Below, piece by piece: positions 1,444 through 12,330 of a stretch of 49,830 nt of DNA (position 1 is its first letter; the number at the start of each line of letters is the position of its first letter). Below the pieces are notes generated by a model, which ran no database searches, was not told the origin of the DNA, and saw only the letters and a list, made by a program, of their open reading frames with translations. Both the position numbers and the translations under genes were made by a program. This DNA is from Candidatus Ornithospirochaeta stercoripullorum (GTDB taxonomy: Bacteria > Spirochaetota > Spirochaetia > Sphaerochaetales > Sphaerochaetaceae): assembly GCA_017694595.1 (NCBI GenBank), contig JADIMT010000067.1, forward strand, positions 1-49,830. Reading direction: 5' to 3'.

Positions 1444-3516
1444 TTAATAGAAAAGAATATCAGAGTAAGTCGGGAACGGCCAGTATGACTTGTCCGTGAT
1501 GCTTTCAAGCTTATCGCTGAGCCCTCTCGCATCCTCCATCAGAGGGATGATGCAATCTGCAGCGTAGAATGCGGCCTTCTCTGTCCCTTCCGGGCTTTCT
1601 GCTATGCACTTGTCGAGTTCATCGCATTTCGAAAGAAGCTCATTGGCAAGAGAGCTGACACTACTGCATAGCGCTTTGTCAGCTTCGGAGGTAACTCCGA
1701 TCTCCTTCTTCACCTGCACAGAAGATGCGAGTGATGATGAGAAGCGAAGCACTGCAGGAAGAACCTGGCGGCGCAGGATTTCAAGCATCGTTGAAGCCTC
1801 GATATGTATTGCCTTCTGATACTCATCAAGAGAGATCTCGAGCCGGGACTCCATCTCCTCCCTTGTGTATATTCTATGACGGCTGAAGAGCGCGATATTC
1901 TTCTCATCGCAGTAGTGGACAAGCGCATCCGGAGTCCTCTTGTAATTCGCAAGTCCCCTTCTCTCAGCTTCTTCCTCCCACTCTTTACTATAGCCATTGC
2001 CGTTGAAAAGGATCCTTCTATGGGCTTTAAGCTCTCTTCTTATCAGAGCAGAAAGGGATGCATTGAAATCCGCAGCACCTTCCAGCTCATCACAGAACGA
2101 CGCAAGCGCATCTGCAACTGCTGTGTTAAGCATCACGTTCGTGCAAGCGATGTTGAAAGAGGAACCAGGCATACGGAACTCGAACTTGTTTCCTGTGAAT
2201 GCAAATGGACTTGTCCTGTTTCTGTCGGAGTTATCGCGGGCGAGCTTCGGAAGCACGCTTGTCCCGATATCCAATCTCATCGATGAGGTTTTGCCGCTCA
2301 GCGGCTTGTCATCGACGATGGAAGAGATGACGGACTCAAGCTCGTCTCCGACGAAGATTGAGACAATCGCTGGAGGTGCTTCATTAGCTCCGAGACGATG
2401 GTCATTGCCAGCGCTTGCCACGCTTATACGAAGCAGGTCCTGATACTCATCAACAGCTTTTATGATAGCCGTAAGGAAGAGCAGGAACTGAGCATTAGCC
2501 TCTGGAGTCCTGCCAGGATCAAGGAGGTTCTCACCGTCATCAGTGCTCAAAGCCCAGTTGTTATGCTTGCCAGAGCCATTGATGCCTTCGAAAGGCTTCT
2601 CATGCAGCAGACAGGCAAAACCATGACGCTCAGCAACCTTCTTCATCATCTCCATCGTGAGCTGATTAGCATCAGTTGCTTTATTCGCATTGTCATAGAT
2701 TGGAGCCATCTCATGCTGGCATGGGGCAACCTCATTGTGCTCTGTCTTTGCAGTTATTCCCAGCTTCCATAGCTCTTCATCAAGATCTGCCATAAATGCT
2801 TTAACACGGGGCCTGATGGAACCGAAGTAATGATCTTCCATCTCCTGTCCTTTTGCAGCTGCAGCACCGACAAGAGTGCGTCCAGTAAGCTTGAGATCAA
2901 GACGCTTTGCAAAATCATTCTTATCAATAAGGAAGTACTCCTGCTCTGCCCCGATAGTAGCATTCACTCTCTTCACGTTCTTTCCAAAGAGTGACAACGC
3001 CCTGACAGCTTCCTTGCTGATGACATCCATGCTTCGCAGAAGCGGTGTCTTTTTATCGAGAATCTGTCCTGTATAGGAGCAGAAAGCAGTGGGGATGCAC
3101 AATGTATCATCCTTTATGAACGCATAGCTTGTAGGATCCCAAGCTGTATATCCACGCGCTTCGAATGTAGCTCTAAGTCCACCGGAAGGGAATGATGATG
3201 CATCAGGCTCACCTTTGATCAGCTCTTTGCCTGAAAAATCCATGATGACGCTGCCAGACTTATCTACAGTCAGGAAGCTATCATGTTTCTCTGCAGTTAC
3301 ACCTGTCATCGGCTGAAACCAATGAGTGAAGTGCGTTGCACCTTTGCTGACAGCCCACTCTTTCATAGCAGCAGCTACGATATCTGCAACATCTTCATCG
3401 AGAGCTTTGCCTTCAACCATTGTATTCTTCAATGATTGATATACCTTTTTCGGAAGCATTTCTCTCATAATGTTATCATTAAAAACCATGGATCCGAACA
3501 TTTCAGGAACATTCAT
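1444..3516 (-). CDS. glnN: glutamine synthetase type III
   Basis: This 690-residue protein has the large size typical of GSIII (about 700 residues) rather than GSI (440-470). Recognisable motifs are the glutamate/metal segment IGAEQEYFLID, the EHNEVAPCQHEMAP box, the INGSGKHNNWALST loop, and RNRTSPFAFTGNKFEFRMPG. It makes glutamine from glutamate, ammonia and ATP in the cytoplasm. The ATG at 3516 is chosen because AGGAGGTG lies 5 bases upstream; an in-frame ATG eight codons earlier lacks such a site. It is last in the leftward operon glnA - ANTAR regulator - glnN, 10 bp after the regulator. Two glutamine synthetases in one operon is unusual, and the ANTAR gene between them suggests shared antitermination control. 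Confidence 0.95.
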   Translation of the reverse strand: MNVPEMFGSMVFNDNIMREMLPKKVYQSLKNTMVEGKALDEDVADIVAAAMKEWAVSKGATHFTHWFQPMTGVTAEKHDSFLTVDKSGSVIMDFSGKELIKGEPDASSFPSGGLRATFEARGYTAWDPTSYAFIKDDTLCIPTAFCSYTGQILDKKTPLLRSMDVISKEAVRALSLFGKNVKRVNATIGAEQEYFLIDKNDFAKRLDLKLTGRTLVGAAAAKGQEMEDHYFGSIRPRVKAFMADLDEELWKLGITAKTEHNEVAPCQHEMAPIYDNANKATDANQLTMEMMKKVAERHGFACLLHEKPFEGINGSGKHNNWALSTDDGENLLDPGRTPEANAQFLLFLTAIIKAVDEYQDLLRISVASAGNDHRLGANEAPPAIVSIFVGDELESVISSIVDDKPLSGKTSSMRLDIGTSVLPKLARDNSDRNRTSPFAFTGNKFEFRMPGSSFNIACTNVMLNTAVADALASFCDELEGAADFNASLSALIRRELKAHRRILFNGNGYSKEWEEEAERRGLANYKRTPDALVHYCDEKNIALFSRHRIYTREEMESRLEISLDEYQKAIHIEASTMLEILRRQVLPAVLRFSSSLASSVQVKKEIGVTSEADKALCSSVSSLANELLSKCDELDKCIAESPEGTEKAAFYAADCIIPLMEDARGLSDKLESITDKSYWPFPTYSDILFY

Positions 3517-3526
3517 AATACACCTC

Positions 3527-4078
3527 CTATGATAACTCACTGACTATGCTCATTGCCGCATCAGACAGGCTGATACGGTTATTCATCGCTTTTTTCTCTA
3601 TATATGCATGAGCTTCCTGCTCGCTCATAGCTTTGTTCTTGGCCAGAAGGCATTTAGCCTCAGTCAGAAGCTTCTCATTCTTCAGCCTTTCAAGAAGTTT
3701 CCTGTTCTTCTCTTCCGCCTTATGAACCTTTTCCCTGGCAACACGTACGGAGCGGAGAACGGAAGCAAAACCCTCACGACTGTTGCTGGAGACATAGATT
3801 CCGTACTTCCCCATCACCTCTGCCATGTTCCCAACGAAGCTGTCAGGAACAATCAAGATCGTGTCCACACCCTCCCCTGAAGCGAAGAGTGCAACCTCTT
3901 TCGCGGACCCTGCTGGAAGCGGAGAGACGACGATGACAAGAGAGAATGAGATATCAAGGATCTTCATCCTTGCCTCTTTGGCGTTCTCCGCCCTGATCAG
4001 CGTATAGCTTCCCAGTGCAAGCATTCTCTTGATTTCATCGCAAGCAGAACGTTCTGCAACCACCAGCACCGTTTCCAT
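3527..4078 (-). CDS. ANTAR-domain RNA-binding antiterminator with degenerate receiver domain
   Basis: This 183-residue protein has a response-regulator-like fold at residues 1-115, a coiled-coil linker (about 115-135) and a C-terminal ANTAR domain (about 135-180). The ANTAR signature is clear: LLTEAKCLLAKNKAMSEQEA, then AYIEKKAMNNRISLSDAA. ANTAR proteins (AmiR, NasR, EutV) bind leader RNAs with hexaloop hairpins and stop terminator formation. The receiver looks unable to take a phosphate: the acidic pair is absent (LVVAERS where VVDDE is usual), and the expected phospho-Asp position near residue 51 is LVIVVSPLP. Control by partner protein or ligand is therefore more likely. Start is ATG 4078 with GAGG six bases upstream. 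It lies between glnA and glnN; both divergent leaders carry candidate targets. Confidence 0.88.
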   Translation of the reverse strand: METVLVVAERSACDEIKRMLALGSYTLIRAENAKEARMKILDISFSLVIVVSPLPAGSAKEVALFASGEGVDTILIVPDSFVGNMAEVMGKYGIYVSSNSREGFASVLRSVRVAREKVHKAEEKNRKLLERLKNEKLLTEAKCLLAKNKAMSEQEAHAYIEKKAMNNRISLSDAAMSIVSELS

Positions 4079-4085
4079 AATGCCT

Positions 4086-5372
4086 CTATATAAAGCGGAA
4101 ATACCGTCTGAGCAGAGCCTCATGGCTCCTGCCTTCCTTTTCGCACTCCTCAGCATCTTCCGCTCTGTCAGAGAGGAATGTGCTGACTATCCGTTCAGGG
4201 ATCACGCTACGGATGAACTCGCTCCTCCTCGCTTCTTCCACCGCTTCAGAAAGGTTCTTGGGAAGCCTTTCTGAAAGCGGCGAGGAAAGCATGTCTCCAG
4301 TTGCCTCCGCAAAAGCGACCTGCCTTTCAGCGATGCCCTCGAAGCCCGCTGAGAGAAGGAGGGAAATAAGGAGGTACGGATTAGCAGCTGGATCAGGGCT
4401 TCTAACTTCCATACGTGACTCAGACCCCTCTGCATATGGTATGCGTACAAGCGTCGATCTGTTCTGATGGCTCCATGAGACTGTGGAAGGAGCTTCAAAC
4501 TGCCCAAAGCGCTCATAAGAAGAAACAAGCGGATTTGAAAAAACCGTAATCTCCTTCATGCGTCTCAGGATACCCGCCATGAATGACATAGCTTTTGCCT
4601 CTTCTTTCTCGAAAAGGTTTTCTCCATTCTCATAGAGAGATAGGTTTATATGAAGACCATTTCCACTCTCATTCTCTATAGGCTTAGGCATGAAAGAGGC
4701 ATAAAGCCCATGCAGCTGTGCAATAGCTTTCACAGCTGTCTTGAAAGTCATCAGATCATCTGCAGCTTTCAGCGGCGATGAACAGCGGAAGTCAACTTCA
4801 TTCTGACCAGGTCCATGCTCATGATGGCTACGCTCTGGCTTGATTCCCATATTCTCAAGAGCAAAGCAGATCTCCCTTCTGACATTCTCTCCTCTGTCGA
4901 GAGGAGCCATATCGAAATAACCAGCCTCATCGAATGGATTGAGTGTAGGATAGCCCTTCTCATCTGTCTCAAAAAGATAGAACTCGCATTCAGGACCTAC
5001 CAGGAATGAATAGCCTGCGCTGCGGCTGCTTTTCTCTATCTCAGAGAGCAGATAACGGCCATCACCTTCAAAAGGCCTCCTGTCAGGATAGGTGATATAG
5101 CAATAGAAACGTGCAACAGCCCTGTCTGAGGGTCTCCACGGAAGGATGGAAAAAGTATCCAGATCTGGGAAGAGAAGCAAATCTGATTCGCTTATGTTCA
5201 AGAATCCCCTGATAGCGGATGCATCGAACGAGACTCCATGCTCAACAGCATGTTCAAGCTCATCTGCCATAATCGCGATATTCTTCTGCCTGCCGGAAAT
5301 ATCGCAGAAAGCCAGGCGTATGAATTTAATCTCATATTCAGCCAAGAGCTGCTTGATACCCTCGAAGTCCAT
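4086..5372 (-). CDS. glnA: glutamine synthetase type I
   Basis: This 428-residue protein matches the short GSI class. Visible elements are the N-terminal beta-grasp (FIRLAFCDISGRQKNIAI), the catalytic EHGPGQNEVDF metal-binding motif, NGLHINLSLYENGENLF, NRSTLVRIPYA, and RMEVRSPDPAANPYL. It catalyses ATP-dependent glutamine formation. Start ATG 5372 is preceded by GGAGGAG two bases away. An in-frame ATG 22 codons earlier would run through the attenuator hairpin and is rejected. No clear adenylylation-type NLYDLP tyrosine motif is seen at the C-terminus, so GlnE control is unlikely. It is first gene of the leftward operon, controlled by the leader at 5373-5432. Confidence 0.93.
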   Translation of the reverse strand: MDFEGIKQLLAEYEIKFIRLAFCDISGRQKNIAIMADELEHAVEHGVSFDASAIRGFLNISESDLLLFPDLDTFSILPWRPSDRAVARFYCYITYPDRRPFEGDGRYLLSEIEKSSRSAGYSFLVGPECEFYLFETDEKGYPTLNPFDEAGYFDMAPLDRGENVRREICFALENMGIKPERSHHEHGPGQNEVDFRCSSPLKAADDLMTFKTAVKAIAQLHGLYASFMPKPIENESGNGLHINLSLYENGENLFEKEEAKAMSFMAGILRRMKEITVFSNPLVSSYERFGQFEAPSTVSWSHQNRSTLVRIPYAEGSESRMEVRSPDPAANPYLLISLLLSAGFEGIAERQVAFAEATGDMLSSPLSERLPKNLSEAVEEARRSEFIRSVIPERIVSTFLSDRAEDAEECEKEGRSHEALLRRYFRFI

Positions 5373-5389
5373 AACTCCTCCATTAACGG

Positions 5390-5424
5390 AAAAAGCGCCA
5401 CAGATATAACTCTGCAGCGCCTTT
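5390..5424 (-). terminator. attenuator terminator in the glnA leader
   Basis: On the minus strand AAAGGCGCTGCAGA and TCTGTGGCGCTTT form a stem of about 14 bp (with G-U pairs) around a six-base loop, followed by a run of T. It lies between the likely promoter and the glnA ribosome-binding site, 18 bp upstream of the start codon. Transcription should therefore stop before glnA unless the stem is prevented from forming. Confidence 0.8.
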
Positions 5425-5428
5425 GCTG
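5415..5428 (-). promoter_or_regulatory. candidate ANTAR-binding hexaloop hairpin, glnA leader
   Basis: On the minus strand CAGC-AAAGGC-GCTG forms a hairpin with a six-base loop having A at position 1 and G at position 4, the bases conserved in ANTAR target loops. Its 3' arm and loop use the first ten bases of the terminator's 5' arm, so the two structures exclude each other. A second, upstream hexaloop (P1) that usually pairs with this one was not found. Confidence 0.55.
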
Positions 5429-5437
5429 TACAGGCCA

Positions 5438-5467
5438 ATAGTAGGCATTTTCAGCTATGAACGTCAA
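5438..5467 (-). promoter_or_regulatory. likely sigma-70 promoter of the glnA operon
   Basis: On the minus strand TTGACG (5467-5462) and TACTAT (5443-5438) are 18 bp apart. The start point would fall near 5431, giving a leader of about 60 bases that begins just before the hexaloop hairpin. Confidence 0.55.
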
Positions 5468-5472
5468 GAGAG

Positions 5473-5522
5473 TTTATGCATAAAATTGCATTTTTATTCT
5501 GGTTATATTCTTTCATGCAATT
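5473..5522. promoter_or_regulatory. palindrome cluster between the divergent nitrogen operons
   Basis: TTTATGCATAAA (5473-5484) is a perfect 12-bp palindrome just upstream of the glnA -35 box. AATTGCAT (5484-5491) and ATGCAATT (5515-5522) form an 8-bp inverted repeat, the second touching the glt -35 box. The shared ATGCA core suggests a DNA-binding regulator of both promoters, but AT-rich sequence produces such palindromes by chance as well. Confidence 0.35.
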
Positions 5523-5550
5523 GACAAAGGATAAAAATATAACGTAAAAC
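5521..5550 (+). promoter_or_regulatory. likely promoter of the glutamate synthase operon
   Basis: TTGACA (5521-5526) is a consensus -35. The best -10 is TAAAAC (5545-5550) at 18 bp, which matches consensus at four of six positions. The heptamer AACGTAA is repeated in tandem at 5541-5554 across the -10 region. Confidence 0.5.
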
Positions 5551-5559
5551 GTAACGAAA

Positions 5560-5575
5560 GGAACAAGGACGTTCT
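5560..5575 (+). promoter_or_regulatory. candidate ANTAR-binding hexaloop hairpin, glt leader
   Basis: GAAC-AAGGAC-GTTC (5561-5574) forms a four-base-pair stem, extended by a G-U pair, with a six-base loop that has A1 and G4. Its loop and 3' arm coincide with the first bases of the downstream terminator arm (AAGGACG). This is the same arrangement as in the glnA leader on the other strand. Confidence 0.55.
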
Positions 5576-5605
5576 AAGAGAAGATCTTAGTGCGTCCTTT
5601 TTTTT
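5565..5605 (+). terminator. attenuator terminator in the glt leader
   Basis: AAGGACG (5565-5571) pairs with CGTCCTT (5593-5599), and inside it CTAAGA (5574-5579) pairs with TCTTAG (5585-5590). A run of eight T follows (5598-5605). It sits between the promoter and the ribosome-binding site GAGG of the first gene, 15 bp ahead of the start codon. It is a leader terminator, not the end of a gene. Confidence 0.85.
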
Positions 5606-5619
5606 ATTCAGAGGTCGAT

Positions 5620-6717
5620 ATGAAAAGAGAAGGAGAAGTACGAATCAGCTCAGGCTGTGCTATAAGCGGCATATTCTGCAGGGATGGCAAAAGGATTTCT
5701 GGAGAAGCTATCAGGAAAAGCATCGCTGTAATGCACAACAGATCCAACGGCTTGGGCGGAGGCTTCGCGGGCTATGGAATCTATCCGCAATACAAAGATT
5801 ACTATGCGTTGCATATATTCTACGATTCCCAATACGCAAGGGAAGAGACAGAGCGGTTTCTCGATAAACGCTTTGATATCATAAACCTCTCAAAGATCCC
5901 GACAAGGCAGATTCCCCAGATTTCAGATGTCCCCCTAATCTGGCGCTATTTCGTCTCACCGCTTCCGCATCTGCTTCAGGACAGCCAGCTGGACGAAGAT
6001 GAATACACTGCAAGGACGACGATAGCTATAAGCGACACGATCAATGGTGCCTATGTCGTCTCATGCGGCAAGGACATGGGAGTCTTCAAAGCTGTAGGCT
6101 ATCCTGAAGATGTGGCGAAGTTCTACAGGCTTGAGGAATATGAAGGATATTCATGGACAGCTCATGGCCGCTATCCGACAAACACTCCAGGCTGGTGGGC
6201 TGGCTCGCACCCATTCTCTCTCCTGGATCTCAGTGTAGTGCACAACGGTGAAATCTCATCATACGATGCCAACAGACGCTCTGTAGAGATGTATGGATAT
6301 TCTTGCAATCTGCTCACAGACACAGAGGTCATCACATATATTCTTGATTATCTGACAAGGAAGCAAGGACTATCGATGAAGGAGAGCTCCGAAGTGATTG
6401 CAGCTCCATTCTGGACGACTATCGCAATAAAGTCCGAGAAAGAGCATATCAGGCTCTCATACCTACGGAAGATGTTCTCATCATTTCTGATAACCGGACC
6501 TTTCTCAATTCTTGTGGGTTTCAAAGATGGCATGATGGCTCTCAATGACAGACTGAAGCTGAGAAGCCTTGTTGCGGCAGAAAAAGGCAGAACTGTCTAC
6601 TTCGCTTCAGAGGAAGCAGCCATAAGAGCGATTGAGGAGAACCCTGAAAGAATCTGGGCACCGCGCGGAGGAGAAGCCGTAATCGTGAAGCTTGATGGAG
6701 AGAAGACAAATGAATAG
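5620..6717 (+). CDS. glutamate synthase, class II glutamine amidotransferase subunit (archaeal-type split GOGAT)
   Basis: This 365-residue protein corresponds to the N-terminal glutaminase part of GltB as a separate chain. The class II amidotransferase signs are SGCAISGIF near the N-terminus (Cys13 as likely nucleophile), MHNRSNGLGGGFAGYG, AHGRYPTNTPGWW and VVHNGEIS. It releases ammonia from glutamine for the FMN subunit. The cysteine follows 12 residues rather than Met1, so a short propeptide would have to be cut off to expose it. Start ATG 5620 has GAGG six bases upstream; an earlier in-frame ATG lies inside the terminator stem. It overlaps the next gene by 8 bp and heads the operon. Confidence 0.85.
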   Translation: MKREGEVRISSGCAISGIFCRDGKRISGEAIRKSIAVMHNRSNGLGGGFAGYGIYPQYKDYYALHIFYDSQYAREETERFLDKRFDIINLSKIPTRQIPQISDVPLIWRYFVSPLPHLLQDSQLDEDEYTARTTIAISDTINGAYVVSCGKDMGVFKAVGYPEDVAKFYRLEEYEGYSWTAHGRYPTNTPGWWAGSHPFSLLDLSVVHNGEISSYDANRRSVEMYGYSCNLLTDTEVITYILDYLTRKQGLSMKESSEVIAAPFWTTIAIKSEKEHIRLSYLRKMFSSFLITGPFSILVGFKDGMMALNDRLKLRSLVAAEKGRTVYFASEEAAIRAIEENPERIWAPRGGEAVIVKLDGEKTNE

Positions 6718-8197
6718 AAGATATAGAATCAGGAAAGATGACAGCTGCATCTCCTGTCTGAGATGTGCAAGAGAATGCTCATTCGGCGCTATCGAAATCA
6801 ATAATGGCAATACGCTGTCATTTAAACACGACAAGTGTGTTGACTGCCAACGCTGCGTCTCTTTCTGTCCAACTGGTGCTATTTATATCACAGAGGATGA
6901 GAATCGATTCAGAACGAACTCCGTCTTCTCTGATAACGACATCAAGGAAATACTGCTGCAAGCAGAGACAGGTGGAGTGCTTCTATCTTCAATGGGGGCT
7001 GCAGGAAGCAATGTGCCAATCTATTTCGACAAGCTGCTTCTCAACGCAAGCCAAGTGACAAATCCATCGATAGATCCACTGAGGGAACCTATGGAGACTG
7101 CAGTATTTCTAGGACAGAGACCGGAGGGAATCGAGAGGGACAAGGACGGCAGTCTCATAGATAACCTTCCACCGCACTTGGAACTGAAGACTCCAATCAT
7201 GTTCTCCGCAATGAGCTATGGCGCTATCAGCTTGAATGTGCATAAAGCATTAGCAATGGCTGCAGAAACTTTGGGCACTTACTGGAACACGGGCGAAGGT
7301 GGTCTTCACGGGAGCCTCTACCCTTACAAGAAAAACACGATCGTGCAAGTCGCTTCTGGCCGCTTTGGTGTCCACGAGACTTATCTCAACACAGCTTCCG
7401 CGATCGAGATAAAAATCGGACAGGGTGCTAAGCCCGGCATCGGAGGTCATCTTACAGGAAAAAAGATCATCGGAGATGTCTCCAAGACGAGGATGGTACC
7501 GGAAGGCTTGGATGCTATAAGTCCAGCCCCACATCATGACATCTACTCAATAGAGGATCTTGCACAGCTTGTCATGTCGATAAAGGAAGCAACTGACTAC
7601 AAAAAGCCAGTGATTGTAAAAGTTGCTGCAGTGCATAATATCGCACCGATTGCTTCAGGTATCGCCAGAAGCGGTGCAGATATCATTTCAATCGATGGTT
7701 ACAGAGGTGGCACGGGCGCAGCACCAAAACGCATCCGCGACAATGTCGGTATTCCAATCGAGTTCGCGCTTGCTGCAGTGGACCAGAGACTGAGGGAAGA
7801 GAGAATCAGGGACAGAGTGAGCATCATCGCATCCGGAGGCATCAGGAACTCGGCAGATGCCATCAAAGCAATCGCGATAGGCGCTGATGCAGTCTCTATC
7901 GGAACAGCTGCCCTTTGCGCTCTCGGATGCCATATCTGCGCATCTTGCCATACAGGTAAATGCGCATGGGGCCTAGCTACGCAGGATCCAGAGCTGACAA
8001 AGCGGCTTGATCCGGAAAAGGGGGCGGAGAAGCTGGTCAACCTCGTCAATGCATGGACACGCGAGATGAAGGAAATCATGGGTGGCATGGGCATCAACAG
8101 CATTGAAGCGCTTCGTGGAAACAGGAGCGCTTTGAGAGGCGTCGATCTCAATGTCAAGGAGCTTGAGATACTCGGAATCAAATATGCAGGAGAATGA
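6710..8197 (+). CDS. glutamate synthase, ferredoxin-FMN synthase subunit (archaeal-type split GOGAT)
   Basis: This 495-residue protein begins with two 4Fe-4S ferredoxin motifs (Cys13/16/19/23 and Cys43/46/49/53). The FMN-binding, 2-oxoglutarate-reducing glutamate synthase core follows: FSAMSYGAISLNVHKALAMA, NTGEGGLH, GQGAKPGIGGHL, SIDGYRGGTGAAP, IASGGIRN. The cysteine cluster CALGCHICASCHTGKC near residue 410 should hold the 3Fe-4S centre. It joins ammonia to 2-oxoglutarate to make glutamate. The fused ferredoxin domain and the absence of a gltD-type NADPH subunit nearby suggest electrons come from ferredoxin or a distant partner. Start ATG 6710 overlaps the previous stop. Confidence 0.9.
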   Translation: MNRRYRIRKDDSCISCLRCARECSFGAIEINNGNTLSFKHDKCVDCQRCVSFCPTGAIYITEDENRFRTNSVFSDNDIKEILLQAETGGVLLSSMGAAGSNVPIYFDKLLLNASQVTNPSIDPLREPMETAVFLGQRPEGIERDKDGSLIDNLPPHLELKTPIMFSAMSYGAISLNVHKALAMAAETLGTYWNTGEGGLHGSLYPYKKNTIVQVASGRFGVHETYLNTASAIEIKIGQGAKPGIGGHLTGKKIIGDVSKTRMVPEGLDAISPAPHHDIYSIEDLAQLVMSIKEATDYKKPVIVKVAAVHNIAPIASGIARSGADIISIDGYRGGTGAAPKRIRDNVGIPIEFALAAVDQRLREERIRDRVSIIASGGIRNSADAIKAIAIGADAVSIGTAALCALGCHICASCHTGKCAWGLATQDPELTKRLDPEKGAEKLVNLVNAWTREMKEIMGGMGINSIEALRGNRSALRGVDLNVKELEILGIKYAGE

Positions 8198-8198
8198 T

Positions 8199-8915
8199 AT
8201 GAGGACTTTCGATATACGAAAAGACAGTTGGGATACAATCAGGAAGCATGAGAATGAGAATATAACAATCACAGGCTGCCTGGGAGAAAGATACATTGGC
8301 TGCGGGATGAAGGATGGTACCATCCACATTGAAGGGACACCTGGCAACGCGCTTGCAGCTTATCTCGACGGAGGCACAATCTACGTGGATGGCAATGCCC
8401 AGGATGCCACTGCTGATACAATGAATGCTGGTTTAGTCGCTATAAAAGGTTCTGCGGGCGACGCTCTCGCTTATGGCATGAGAGGCGGAAAAGTCTATGT
8501 ACTCGGCGATGCCGGCTACCGCGCCGGTGTGCACATGAAAGCATATGAAGAGAACAAGAGCATCCTCGTTATCGGAGGCAGGACTGGATCTTTTCTGGGA
8601 GAGTACCTTGCAGGTGGCATCATCGTCGTGCTAGGACTCGGGGATGAAGATGAGGATATCACAGGGTACTTCTGCGGCAATGGCATGTACGCGGGGACAA
8701 TCTATCTGAGAACCAACAAAACTCCATTGAATCTCTCCGATAAGCTTGTAAAGCGCGAGGTGACAGAAGAAGAGAAAAATCGCGTGCTCCACCCTATCAT
8801 CAGCGATTTCGCTTCTGTCTTCTCGCTCTCCCTGGAGCATTGTCTTTCATCTTCGTTCATTGCGATCGAAGCCGATAAGTCCAAGACGTATAGCCAGCTA
8901 TACGCAGCAGTTTGA
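8199..8915 (+). CDS. glutamate synthase, GXGXG-domain subunit (archaeal-type split GOGAT)
   Basis: This 238-residue protein is the C-terminal beta-helix part of GltB as a free chain. Its body is a run of glycine-rich turns spaced about 20 residues apart (YIGCGMKDGTIHIEG, AYLDGGTIYVDGNA, YGMRGGKVYVLGDA, GEYLAGGIIVVLG). In fused GltB this domain holds the subunits and ammonia tunnel together. ATG 8199 is chosen over ATG 8184 because GGAG lies six bases ahead; it begins right after the previous stop. The last 50 residues depart from the repeats and are unassigned. It ends three bases before asparagine synthetase. Confidence 0.88.
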   Translation: MRTFDIRKDSWDTIRKHENENITITGCLGERYIGCGMKDGTIHIEGTPGNALAAYLDGGTIYVDGNAQDATADTMNAGLVAIKGSAGDALAYGMRGGKVYVLGDAGYRAGVHMKAYEENKSILVIGGRTGSFLGEYLAGGIIVVLGLGDEDEDITGYFCGNGMYAGTIYLRTNKTPLNLSDKLVKREVTEEEKNRVLHPIISDFASVFSLSLEHCLSSSFIAIEADKSKTYSQLYAAV

Positions 8916-8918
8916 GAT

Positions 8919-10502
8919 ATGTGTACAATATTTGCTTATAAAGGCAAAGCTATAAGCCTTGCTGAGATTAAAGAATATCTGAAGAGAACGCACCGAAGGG
9001 GCCCTGATTGCGAAAGAATACTCGCGCTGGACAGTGACACTTTTCTCGCCTTCCAGCGTTTGTCGATTATGGGCATAGACGAAAGAGGCATGCAGCCTTT
9101 TGAATACAAGGGAATGTACAGCCTCACGAATGGTGAAATCTATGGATTCAGGTCCATCAGGAAAGAACTGGAGAAAGAAGGTTACCACTTTCATTCCGAC
9201 TCCGATTGCGAGACTGTCCTCTATCTTTACGACAAATATAAAGAGAAGATGTTCTCACTGCTCGATGCAGAGTTCGCAACAGTTATCTATGACAGAGAGG
9301 ATGGATTCATAGCAGCCCGTGACCCTATCGGAATCAGGCCGCTGTTCTACGGCTATGACAAAGATGGTTCGATTGCATTTGCAAGTGAAGCTTGCCTCTT
9401 ACCATTCTGCTCCACAGTCCTTCCATTCCCGCCAGGACACTATTACAAAGATGGTAAGTTTATATGTTACCGCGATATATCTGAAGTGAGAACCTACAGA
9501 TATGAAAGCGAGGAACAAGTAACAGATTCCATCAGAGAAAAGCTAATCGAGGCTGTTGGAAAACGTCTTGATTCAGACACGCCTGTAGGCTTCCTCCTAT
9601 CTGGAGGGCTTGACAGCTCCCTCGTCTCATCGATTGCGACAAGGCTGCTGAAGAAACCGATACGCACATTCTCGATTGGAATGGACAAAGACCCAATCGA
9701 TGCCAAGTATGCAGAAGAGACAGCAGTATTTCTCCATGCTGAACATACCCATGTCACGATGGATGCGAAGGAAGTCATCGAGGTTCTCCCTGAAGTAATC
9801 AACTCGCTAGCAACTTATGATATCACGACAATAAGAGCCAGCATCGGCATGTACATCCTCTGCAAATACATCCATAAACATACGGATATCAAAGTACTGC
9901 TTACTGGAGAAGTCTCTGACGAGCTTTTTGGCTACAAATATACTGATTTCGCGCCATCGCCAGAGGAATTCGAGAAAGAGAGCCAGAAGCGTGTGCGGGA
10001 GCTATATGCCTACGATGTGCTTCGCGCTGACAGATGTATCGCAGATAATAGCCTAGAAGCGAGAGTACCATTCGGAGACCTCGATTTCGTCTCATATGTG
10101 CTTTCAATAGATCCTAGAATGAAGATGAATCATTCAGGACATGGTAAGTATCTGCTGCGAAAGGCGTTTGAAAATGGAGACTGGCTTCCACATGATATCC
10201 TCTGGAGAGAGAAGGCGGCTTTCAGCGATGCTGTCGGACACAGCATGGTAGATGAGCTTAAAAAGCATGCCGAAGAGGTCTACAGAGGCAAGGATTTGCA
10301 AAAGGAATACATGAAGTATCCGGAAGATGGCAGGCCATTCACTCCCGAATCGCTTCTATATCGTGAGATATTCGAGAGCTACTACCCTGGGCAATACAGA
10401 ATGATACCTGGCTTCTGGATGCCGAACAAAGCCTGGAAGGGCTGTGATGTCAACGATCCATCAGCCAGAGTGCTCTCAAACTATGGCAAAAGTGGAGAGT
10501 AG
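8919..10502 (+). CDS. asnB: asparagine synthetase (glutamine-hydrolysing)
   Basis: This 527-residue protein has Cys2 as the class II amidotransferase nucleophile. It also has HRRGPDCER, SLTNGEIY, and a C-terminal ATP-pyrophosphatase domain with the PP-loop SGGLDSS (228-234). GEVSDELFGYKY and DRCIADNSLEARVPFGDLDFV are also typical of AsnB. It makes asparagine from aspartate, glutamine and ATP. Its length fits the family (about 500-550). It is the last gene of the glutamate synthase operon, so the operon both forms glutamate and spends glutamine nitrogen. The stop is two bases from the convergent beta-glucuronidase stop, with no clear terminator between. Confidence 0.92.
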   Translation: MCTIFAYKGKAISLAEIKEYLKRTHRRGPDCERILALDSDTFLAFQRLSIMGIDERGMQPFEYKGMYSLTNGEIYGFRSIRKELEKEGYHFHSDSDCETVLYLYDKYKEKMFSLLDAEFATVIYDREDGFIAARDPIGIRPLFYGYDKDGSIAFASEACLLPFCSTVLPFPPGHYYKDGKFICYRDISEVRTYRYESEEQVTDSIREKLIEAVGKRLDSDTPVGFLLSGGLDSSLVSSIATRLLKKPIRTFSIGMDKDPIDAKYAEETAVFLHAEHTHVTMDAKEVIEVLPEVINSLATYDITTIRASIGMYILCKYIHKHTDIKVLLTGEVSDELFGYKYTDFAPSPEEFEKESQKRVRELYAYDVLRADRCIADNSLEARVPFGDLDFVSYVLSIDPRMKMNHSGHGKYLLRKAFENGDWLPHDILWREKAAFSDAVGHSMVDELKKHAEEVYRGKDLQKEYMKYPEDGRPFTPESLLYREIFESYYPGQYRMIPGFWMPNKAWKGCDVNDPSARVLSNYGKSGE

Positions 10503-10503
10503 T

Positions 10504-12330
10504 TCACCTATCACCTTTGTAATCGAGAGGCATACTTTCCCATCTCTTCTTCAGCACGAAGGCTATATCCTTCGGCTGACGCTGGCGGGTAAAGATGCCT
10601 TTCTTGTTTCCGTTGACTCTCATCAAGCCTTCTGTCGTCTGGAAATCCGCGAATGCCCAAGCCTGCTCTCCACGTACGAAATCATAGGAGTCAAAGACTC
10701 GATGAAGCATCTCGAAGACTTCTATCTGATACTCCTGCGTCCACATCACTGATGGAAGCTTATGTTCCGAAGAGAGCGTGTCAGCACCATATTCAGAGAA
10801 GATGAACGGCTTGCCAAGATTGAGCGCTTTCCACTTCTCCATCTCTGCGACGAACTTAGCTTCTGCATCGCTTATCTCGTATCCACCGAGTATATACCAG
10901 CCGTAGTATCTATTGAGAGCGATGAAATCTGAAAGATGATAGCACTTGCATCTCTCAGGACTGGAGCTGACTTCCATAGCAAACGTCCTGGGCCTATGCT
11001 GCGGATCAAACCTCTTTGCAGCTTCAAAGAGCTTCTCGAAGTACGGGAGGCTATTCTCATCAGTCGATTCAGGTTCATTGAGCAAGCTCCATGCGACTAC
11101 CGATGGATGGTTCTTGTCGCGCACAATCATCTCTTCAATAGCTTTCAGATGCTTTTCGAGAAGTATTGGTGTGGTCGGCTTTGAGAAGAACGACTTAGCG
11201 CCTTTGCCCGTTCCTGCATCGAGGAAGTTTGACAAGCTCTCAAAGAGCCCTACCGCTGGCACCTCATCGATTATCATGAAGCCTTCTCTATCAGCTTCTC
11301 TGTATATTTCCTCGTCATATGGATAATGGGAGGTGCGGAAGGAATTCGCGCCAATCCATTTCATAAGCTCAAAATCCCTCTTCATCACCCCGATATTGAA
11401 ACCACGGCCTACGATATCGCTATCTTCATGCTTTCCAAAGCCTTTGAAGTAGATGGGACTGCCATTGAGAAGGATCTTTGTCCCTTCGATCTTCACTTCC
11501 CTGATTCCAATCGGCATCTCATAGACATCAAGAAGCTTATCGCCATCTCTCAGCTCTATTCTAAGCGTGTAGAGATAAGCGTTTCCAACCTGCCAGAGAT
11601 GAGCATTCTCAAGCTTAATCACCCCGCTCCCACCTTTCGAAGAAGCTTCTTTCTTTCCATCCTCATCGAAAAGAGAGAGAACAACATCTGCATCCCCGGT
11701 TGTCCTAATGGAGTATGTTATCTCAGCATGCTCACCATCGACTGCATAAGAGAGATCTACATCCTCGACAGCAATCTTCGGAAGAGAGAGAAGATAGACA
11801 GAACGCTGCAAGCCAGAATAGTTATAGAAATCAAAGTATGGCTTTGACATCTTCCTGCCATTTCCCAGCGTGATCGTCATGCCACAAGGAATATTCGTCT
11901 CGTTGAGCTCATTGTTGACTACGACAACGACCTTATTCTTCTTGCCATACACTGCCATCGTTGTGATATCCACCATGAATGGTAGATAACCACCTTCGTG
12001 CTCTCCAGCTTTCACGCCATTGAGATAGACAGTGGCCCTATGTGTCGTAGCGCCAAAGCGAAGATAGACGCGGTCTCCTTCCATGGCCGCAGGCACTATG
12101 ATATCCCTCTCATACCAGACATCGCCTGTAAACTCGCGGATGCTCTTCTCTGTATAGAAATCCTGGAAGGAAGCAGGTACAGGAATCGTATCGTGGCCAG
12201 GTATGCCAGCGCACCAGTTCAGGATTCCACCTTCCCCATTCCAATCGATAGCGAAACGCCACATACCATCAAGCTTCTGGGACAGACGTGTCTCACTGTA
12301 CTCCGGATAAAGCAAAGAGTATTCAAGCAT
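10504..12330 (-). CDS. uidA: beta-glucuronidase, glycoside hydrolase family 2
   Basis: This 608-residue protein is nearly the length of E. coli GUS (603). The jelly-roll N-domain (about 15-180), immunoglobulin-like middle and TIM barrel are all present. Expected catalytic residues are Glu419 as acid/base (SLLNEP) and Glu513 as nucleophile (FSEYGADT). NKKGIFTRQRQPK near residue 575 matches the Asn-x-Lys motif that reads the glucuronate carboxylate. No signal peptide is present, so it acts in the cytoplasm on imported glucuronides. AGGAGAGG precedes the ATG. It lies 17 bp after an acyl-CoA synthetase gene; no transporter is adjacent, so the substrate route is unknown. Confidence 0.93.
   Translation of the reverse strand: MLEYSLLYPEYSETRLSQKLDGMWRFAIDWNGEGGILNWCAGIPGHDTIPVPASFQDFYTEKSIREFTGDVWYERDIIVPAAMEGDRVYLRFGATTHRATVYLNGVKAGEHEGGYLPFMVDITTMAVYGKKNKVVVVVNNELNETNIPCGMTITLGNGRKMSKPYFDFYNYSGLQRSVYLLSLPKIAVEDVDLSYAVDGEHAEITYSIRTTGDADVVLSLFDEDGKKEASSKGGSGVIKLENAHLWQVGNAYLYTLRIELRDGDKLLDVYEMPIGIREVKIEGTKILLNGSPIYFKGFGKHEDSDIVGRGFNIGVMKRDFELMKWIGANSFRTSHYPYDEEIYREADREGFMIIDEVPAVGLFESLSNFLDAGTGKGAKSFFSKPTTPILLEKHLKAIEEMIVRDKNHPSVVAWSLLNEPESTDENSLPYFEKLFEAAKRFDPQHRPRTFAMEVSSSPERCKCYHLSDFIALNRYYGWYILGGYEISDAEAKFVAEMEKWKALNLGKPFIFSEYGADTLSSEHKLPSVMWTQEYQIEVFEMLHRVFDSYDFVRGEQAWAFADFQTTEGLMRVNGNKKGIFTRQRQPKDIAFVLKKRWESMPLDYKGDR

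Follow-up and report, generated by a model that had tools for sequence, protein, structure and literature searches.

The ANTAR protein encoded in the glnA operon of Candidatus Ornithospirochaeta stercoripullorum is, with a probability of roughly 0.8, a NitR-like antiterminator of a glutamine/ammonium regulon. It would act on single hexaloop hairpins at the 5′ ends of its target transcripts; RNA binding, antitermination and the signal are the putative parts of this reading. The anatomy of the leaders, their conservation, the composition of the regulon, the co-occurrence with the ANTAR gene and the absence of the hairpin P1 are supported by computation.

Two Divergent Nitrogen Operons and Their Leaders

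The analyzed stretch of 49,830 nucleotides, called the window here, is one entire contig of a draft genome of 2.0 Mb, which is 83% complete. The leftward operon consists, in this order, of glnA coding for a type I glutamine synthetase (4086..5372, minus strand, start at 5372; Pfam Gln-synt_C/N), the gene of a NitR/AmiR-like ANTAR regulator (3527..4078, minus strand), and a type III glutamine synthetase gene (GSIII; 1444..3540, minus strand; Pfam GSIII_N and Gln-synt_C). The regulator comprises a receiver-like domain without the phospho-acceptor Asp, a coiled coil and an ANTAR domain. The rightward operon on the plus strand contains the three genes of a split glutamate synthase (glt), which encode the amidotransferase subunit (5620..6717; Pfam GATase_2), the FMN/ferredoxin subunit (6710..8197; Pfam Glu_synthase, Fer4) and the GXGXG subunit (8199..8915, start approximate; Pfam GXGXG), followed by asnB coding for a glutamine-dependent asparagine synthetase (8919..10502; Pfam Asn_synthase). 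Directly behind asnB, a glycosyl hydrolase family 2 gene (10504-12330, minus strand) was identified by Pfam, and several relatives have, near asnB, a pyrG gene preceded by a hexaloop leader. That the leftward operon encodes an ANTAR protein had been proposed from the sequence and was validated by a profile search, in which the protein 3527-4156 (minus strand) matched Pfam ANTAR (PF03861) with 45.7 bits at a curated cut-off of 27.3. This gene is the only one over the cut-off in the window's genome.

The glnA leader (5385..5431, minus strand) has its predicted 5′ end near 5431. Its antiterminator hairpin P2 (5428-5415) is formed by the stem CAGC (5428-5425), the loop AAAGGC (5424-5419) and the stem GCTG (5418-5415), and is overlapped by a terminator helix at about 5423-5390 (-20.9 kcal/mol for 5433-5385). 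The glt leader (5557..5607, plus strand) is predicted to start near 5557. Here, P2 (5560-5575) consists of the stem GGAAC (5560-5564), the loop AAGGAC (5565-5570) and GTTCT (5571-5575), overlapped by a terminator at about 5565-5600 (-21.3 kcal/mol for 5556-5607). Both hexaloops, CAGC[AAAGGC]GCTG for glnA and GAAC[AAGGAC]GTTC for glutamate synthase, are closed by a C-G pair and carry A at position 1 and G at position 4 (A1/G4). In both leaders the strong intrinsic terminator draws its 5′ arm from the P2 loop and 3′ arm. The earlier note had claimed an intrinsic terminator before the first gene of each operon and an alternative A1/G4 hexaloop hairpin overlapping it; both elements hold at these coordinates, and the hairpins go beyond chance in the terminator controls given below.

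Folding of the full leaders led to the terminator in both cases, and RNA ending at the terminator loop (5433-5400 and 5556-5592) contained the hexaloop hairpin in its minimum-energy structure, again in both. P2 is a weak hairpin. A 25-nt glnA piece by itself folds into a different hairpin (-7.0) and not into P2, and the z-scores of short leader pieces are weak (-0.6 to -1.8).

Using a sigma-70 matrix, promoters were predicted for the glnA operon (5438..5467, minus strand; -35 TTGACG 5467-5462, -10 TACTAT 5443-5438) and for the glutamate synthase operon (5521..5550, plus strand; -35 TTGACA 5521-5526, -10 TAAAAC 5545-5550), each with a spacing of 18. All start sites in this study were predicted in the same way. 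A search of the whole window against Rfam at the gathering threshold returned tRNA only, so that no curated family fits these leaders.

Conservation of the Hexaloop

The hexaloop leaders were found to be correctly observed and more frequent than expected by chance. Of 311 terminators in the window and 32 relative loci, 47 start in a C-G-closed hexaloop with A1/G4; two of these 47 appear to be accidental and were left out of a later step. The six other combinations of positions 1 and 4 that were tested gave counts of 4, 3, 1, 1, 0, and 0. The window's own glnA leader was missed by this detector, probably via its terminator rule. When leaders were chosen by their downstream gene only, a C-G-closed A1/G4 hexaloop with at least 3 bp was present in 26 of 27 glnA, 17 of 19 glt and 9 of 10 GSIII leaders, a count which omits operon-internal genes, weak hits (bits ≤80) and hits starting after residue 15. 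For glt, the leaders without it are those of L061 and L063, and for glnA that of L058. In L052, L043, and L057 the script chose a different hairpin though the expected one is present.

Both hexaloops also recur in 15 relatives (L032-L046), which were fetched by their ANTAR gene irrespective of their leaders; in L044 the stem of the glnA leader has only 3 bp. The glt loop alternates between AAGGAC and AAAGGC, with the terminator 3′ arm changing along, and at position 3 of the glnA loop all four bases occur. In more distant members the stems differ (GAC/GTC, CAAC/GTTG, AGAC/GTCT, and AAAGGC/GTCTTT) and the loop rule is unchanged. The relatives were also inspected for terminators that persist after loss of the hexaloop, and the hexaloops were found to persist with varying stems.

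The leader alignment (alignment A1) and the covariance model R1 were built from leaders preselected for A1/G4, a closing C-G pair and at least 4 bp of stem (plus the window's glnA leader), hence the pairing in them and the recovery of such leaders are given by construction. More independent evidence is provided by the gene-only leader set, the genomes outside the training set and the clostridia. Among 142 leaders picked by the model, which itself favors G4, G4 is present in 142, A1 in 139 (three G) and A2 in 141.

Since the loop bases also lie in the terminator 5′ arm, part of their conservation serves the terminator. The hexaloops might therefore be a by-product of sequence constraints on terminator and promoter, with some other signal controlling the attenuators. 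This is very improbable in view of several observations. The P2 stems vary on both sides, with 46 double-changed cells versus 18 in shuffled data, counted in rows selected for a 4-bp stem. Among the 142, 113 leaders were scored for the terminator partner of loop position 4, which is C in 78 of them and U in 35; 26 were unscorable and 3 lacked a U run under the rule of the script. G4 is kept also in the 35 with U, so that terminator pairing alone does not account for it. Moreover, the leaders co-occur with the ANTAR gene, and three ANTAR-less genomes have no matching leader before GSIII, as described below.

In the leaders L050 (G016), L142 (G004), and L118 (G002), position 1 of the loop is G and G4 is kept, which fits the reported lack of a contact by A1 in the structure of EutV.

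Absence of P1 and Predicted Position of the RNA 5′ End

The leaders of EutV, AmiR, and NasR are described with two hairpins, P1 and P2 (PMC3369931, PMC3369936). EutV requires both of them in vivo, and induction is lost on deletion of P1 (PMC3369931), while a lengthened linker abolishes its antitermination in vitro (PMC8934654). Canonical dual-hexaloop antitermination would apply to the leaders studied here as well if P1 were degenerate or located further upstream and transcription started earlier than predicted, a reading which draws on these descriptions and on the start sites being predictions. We consider it improbable. No P1 was found upstream of P2 in the two window leaders, as the earlier note had observed, and P1-like hairpins (at least 3 bp, A1/G4, linker up to 20) are not enriched across the genus, with 9 of 110 non-redundant leaders versus 7.2 ± 2.6 in shuffled sequences; for C-G-closed ones the values are 1 of 110 versus 0.6.

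The same detector does find P1 in a positive control, the locus L185, and at two of four hexaloop-terminator candidates at a Listeria eut regulator gene, where the record is unannotated and the other two candidates were taken as accidental. The Listeria control came from a plasmid search, of which the best 40 of at least 5000 matches were mostly ordinary response regulators, and Listeria alone was used. L185 (5632, minus strand) belongs to a spirochaete of another family and combines a EutV-like ANTAR gene with a dual-hexaloop attenuator, in contrast to the single type.

The predicted promoters argue in the same direction. The best promoter lies 3-16 nt from the P2 stem in 101 of the 110 leaders versus 30 ± 5 in shuffles, and in 37 of 41 clostridial AA.G leaders versus 10.9 ± 2.8. 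With transcription taken to start about seven bases after the -10 box, the RNA is predicted to start 0-10 nt before the P2 stem (in two cases one base inside it), which places the beginning of P2 within about 10 nt of the RNA 5′ end.

Genes Preceded by Hexaloop Leaders

In the window's genome, model R1 found the glt leader (E-value 6.1e-8), the glnA leader (8.1e-6) and a third match (2.7e-4), and the next one, at 0.49, is noise. The third match precedes a gene with ammonium-transporter and P-II domains, as confirmed by Pfam. This gene (L124 3-1655, minus strand, contig C27) encodes an ammonium transporter with the P-II domain fused C-terminally; a nitrogen sensor domain thereby belongs to the regulated set.

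Across 48 genomes of the genus, with the matches listed completely up to an E-value of 0.1, 119 of the 125 matches at E ≤ 0.01 precede glt (37), glnA (29), pyrG (20), GSIII (16), asnB (9) or amt (8), and 6 are other or unassigned. The amt assignments are based on a short sequence match, and one, in the window's genome, is Pfam-confirmed. In three more distant relatives of the Treponema family, candidate hexaloop-terminators were identified before carA, carB and a gene for SAICAR synthetase (Pfam names). Taken together, the regulon covers the uptake of ammonium, the synthesis of glutamine and glutamate, and enzymes which spend glutamine or ammonia.

In many relatives, e.g., at L032 17912 (minus strand) and L058 6727 (plus strand), the same hexaloop attenuator precedes pyrG, the gene of CTP synthase, and this ties a glutamine-consuming nucleotide enzyme to the nitrogen regulator. 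Hexaloop-terminator matches are also located about 150-260 bases before genes of putative secreted proteins in L121 (G026), L153 (G033), L148 (G018), and L154 (G028); the gene downstream in L121 had no Pfam match at 1e-10.

The earlier note had suggested that one RNA-binding protein controls glutamine synthesis and glutamate synthesis together from the same intergenic region. The single regulator for both syntheses is in line with the conserved leaders, and its set is wider than two operons, as it includes amt, pyrG, asnB, and GSIII. That the shared intergenic region is essential is not supported, because other genomes of the genus keep the leaders at separate loci. A dependence on the divergent arrangement was likewise rejected, as in other members of the genus the targets are placed on separate contigs or arranged differently.

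The arrangement also bears on a mode of binding in trans, in which the two ANTAR domains of a dimer would hold the hexaloops of two nascent RNAs, e.g., those of the divergent glnA and glt operons. In favor of it, the two domains of the EutV dimer hold hexaloops of separate RNA molecules in the crystal of the EutV-RNA complex (PMC8934654), and in the window as well as in 14 of the 15 relatives L032-L046 a common intergenic region of about 250-350 bases separates the divergently oriented glnA and glt. Binding in trans nevertheless has hardly any probability, as Walshe et al. deem it unlikely on timing (PMC8934654) and other genomes of the genus have the targets on separate contigs or elsewhere.

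Co-occurrence With the ANTAR Gene

One ANTAR gene over the cut-off was found in 42 of the 48 genus genomes. A leader match at E ≤ 0.01 is present in 39 of these 42, and the remaining three (G013, G031, and G060) have a leader match at 0.011-0.045. Of the six genomes without the ANTAR gene, four (G020, G021, G027, and G066) lack a match at E ≤ 0.01. The other two, G005 and G070, do have one with no ANTAR gene found, and their assemblies are 76-78% complete. G020, G021, and G027 keep GSIII, and the 260 bases upstream of it show no hexaloop-terminator leader by eye.

In G070, the glt leader and operon are kept without the adjoining glnA-ANTAR-GSIII cassette (L346 12239-14080, contig C7): in the 16-kb stretch examined, glnA, ANTAR, and GSIII are not beside glt, and part of the assembly is missing. 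Close to it in L346, and inverted, is a relative of the window protein 190-1005.

At the level of the class, 40 of 297 genomes have both leader and ANTAR gene, 2 the leader only (G202 and G309), 12 the ANTAR gene only and 243 neither, which corresponds to a leader in 42 (E ≤ 0.02) and an ANTAR gene in 52 genomes. This association has a Fisher p of 2.5e-36, with shared ancestry ignored. Five of the 12 ANTAR-bearing genomes without a leader match at E ≤ 0.02 show hexaloop attenuators at their ANTAR loci by eye, namely G302, G315, G323, G326, and G093 (dual), and at the ANTAR loci of the others none was seen by eye. The ANTAR gene itself is located directly after glnA in 67 of 74 relatives tested, comprising spirochaete and clostridial loci.

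The ANTAR Protein

An AlphaFold2 model of the window protein (pLDDT 93.2) consists of a receiver-like domain, a long coiled coil and a three-helix ANTAR fold. Its best fold matches in the PDB are EutV bound to RNA (6ww6, TM 0.71, E-value 1.8e-8), Rv1626 and AmiR, and its best PDB sequence match is AmiR. In the phospho-acceptor column, the window protein has Val, L185 has Asp, and relatives have Asp, Asn or Glu. A search of the phylum with the EutV-like protein gave mostly receiver-only matches.

With the EutV numbering transferred by residue pattern and the contact list taken from PMC8934654, the RNA contact positions K143, K149, E160, M172, N173, and R175 are kept in the window protein, and five others are changed (R142 to E, K147 to E, Y164 to H, R168 to E, and R177 to S). 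Inspected by eye, an alignment of 25 rows shows Lys149, Glu160, and Met172 as invariant, Tyr164 replaced by His or Gln except in L185, and Arg168 replaced by Glu in 23 of 25. Since the pattern H[RS][YH]IEKx[AS]M guided the contig scan, the His/Glu conservation in alignment A4 is partly a matter of selection; that in alignment A2 is not. In the cases seen, proteins of the His/Glu type go together with a single hexaloop and those of the Tyr/Arg type with a dual one, the latter type being represented by L185 and EutV only, and AmiR has His at EutV position 164 in the alignment, yet is reported with a dual leader.

Because the window's receiver has no phospho-acceptor Asp, the signal probably arrives by protein contact. 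Together with the adjacency of glnA, this suggests glutamine synthetase as the signal partner of the ANTAR protein.

The Same Arrangement in Clostridia

The single-hairpin arrangement is common to the related spirochaetes and to clostridia. Of 30 clostridial genomes, picked for such an ANTAR protein and hand-chosen as 30 of 80 loci, 27 were matched at E ≤ 0.05 by the model trained on spirochaetes. GSIII is the commonest downstream gene among the 30 clostridial loci, and candidate hexaloop-terminators also precede an asnA and a nifH gene (Pfam names). In 80 clostridial and spirochaete loci collected by ANTAR similarity, 54 of 1246 terminators start in a C-G-closed A1/G4 hexaloop, and the next most frequent loop combination was counted 9 times; some of the 54 with other loops or inside genes look accidental. 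A P1-like hairpin of at least 4 bp accompanies one of the 54.

Comparison With Known Systems

ANTAR control of nitrogen genes is established (PMC3369931, PMC3369936). NitR of Clostridium saccharobutylicum (Stutz et al. 2007) is an ANTAR antiterminator which induces GS/GOGAT genes upon nitrogen limitation (PMC6316151), and in C. thermocellum an ANTAR gene tracks the expression of the GS-GOGAT cluster (PMC4676874). The kind of system is therefore already known, and the one described here is probably of the NitR type. The likeness lies in a nitrogen-assimilation cluster with glnA, and the two were compared by function and gene neighborhood. The spirochaete regulon, the targets pyrG, asnB, and amt, and the 5′-terminal single hairpin come from the present analysis.

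With EutV of Enterococcus faecalis (Ramesh 2012; Walshe 2022) the window system shares the A1/G4 hexaloop overlapping an intrinsic terminator and the receiver-coiled-coil-ANTAR architecture, with 6ww6 as the best fold match. It differs in the missing P1, the location of the hairpin at the predicted RNA 5′ end, the missing phospho-acceptor Asp, and H for Y164 and E for R168. One hexaloop at the predicted 5′ end, unlike in EutV, makes it a variant of ANTAR antitermination. AmiR of Pseudomonas aeruginosa, which is held by AmiC, also has a pseudo-receiver without phosphorylation and His at the position of EutV Y164, but its amiE leader is reported with a dual hairpin (PMC3369931, PMC3369936). The actinobacterial ANTAR-target RNAs follow the same A1/G4 hexaloop rule, but a dual stem-loop was demanded by the search for them, and many are located near ribosome binding sites or start codons (PMC8164766).

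Among the open-access titles and abstracts listed, none dealt with leader attenuators based on a single ANTAR hexaloop or with regulation by ANTAR proteins in spirochaetes. Closest among them is the work of Walshe et al. (2022), who named one hexaloop as the minimal ANTAR site, with P1 still needed for recruitment because transcription leaves little time, and called for a bioinformatic study of single-hexaloop sites (PMC8934654).

Proposed Mechanism and Implications

According to the mechanism proposed here, the ANTAR protein from the glnA operon would be an RNA-binding antiterminator of the glutamine/ammonium regulon, whose target transcripts would start, within about ten nucleotides of the 5′ end, with a C-G-closed hexaloop hairpin (AANGNN). 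With no active protein present, the nascent RNA would refold from the hexaloop hairpin to the intrinsic terminator, and the operon would be off. Under nitrogen shortage, the protein would grip the single hexaloop, mainly via G4, and stabilize the hairpin, so that RNA polymerase reads through. The signal would probably be transmitted by protein contact, with the usually adjacent GlnA as the prime suspect.

Beyond this, we lean toward a separate mechanistic class in spirochaetes and clostridia, in which one hexaloop at the 5′ end would do both recruitment and antitermination, and the protein would belong to a His/Glu subfamily of ANTAR domains, judged by the positions of EutV Tyr164 and Arg168. 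Such a class would have glutamine synthetase as its likely partner and an output spanning the uptake of ammonium, the formation of glutamine and glutamate and enzymes that consume glutamine, and it would be invisible to the published dual-hairpin searches as described.

The leaders look like natural attenuators which dispense with P1, and this opens the requirement of EutV for two hairpins to a direct test with short RNAs and purified proteins. For the organisms themselves, the analysis points to a probable circuit of nitrogen control in clostridia and in a group of spirochaetes.
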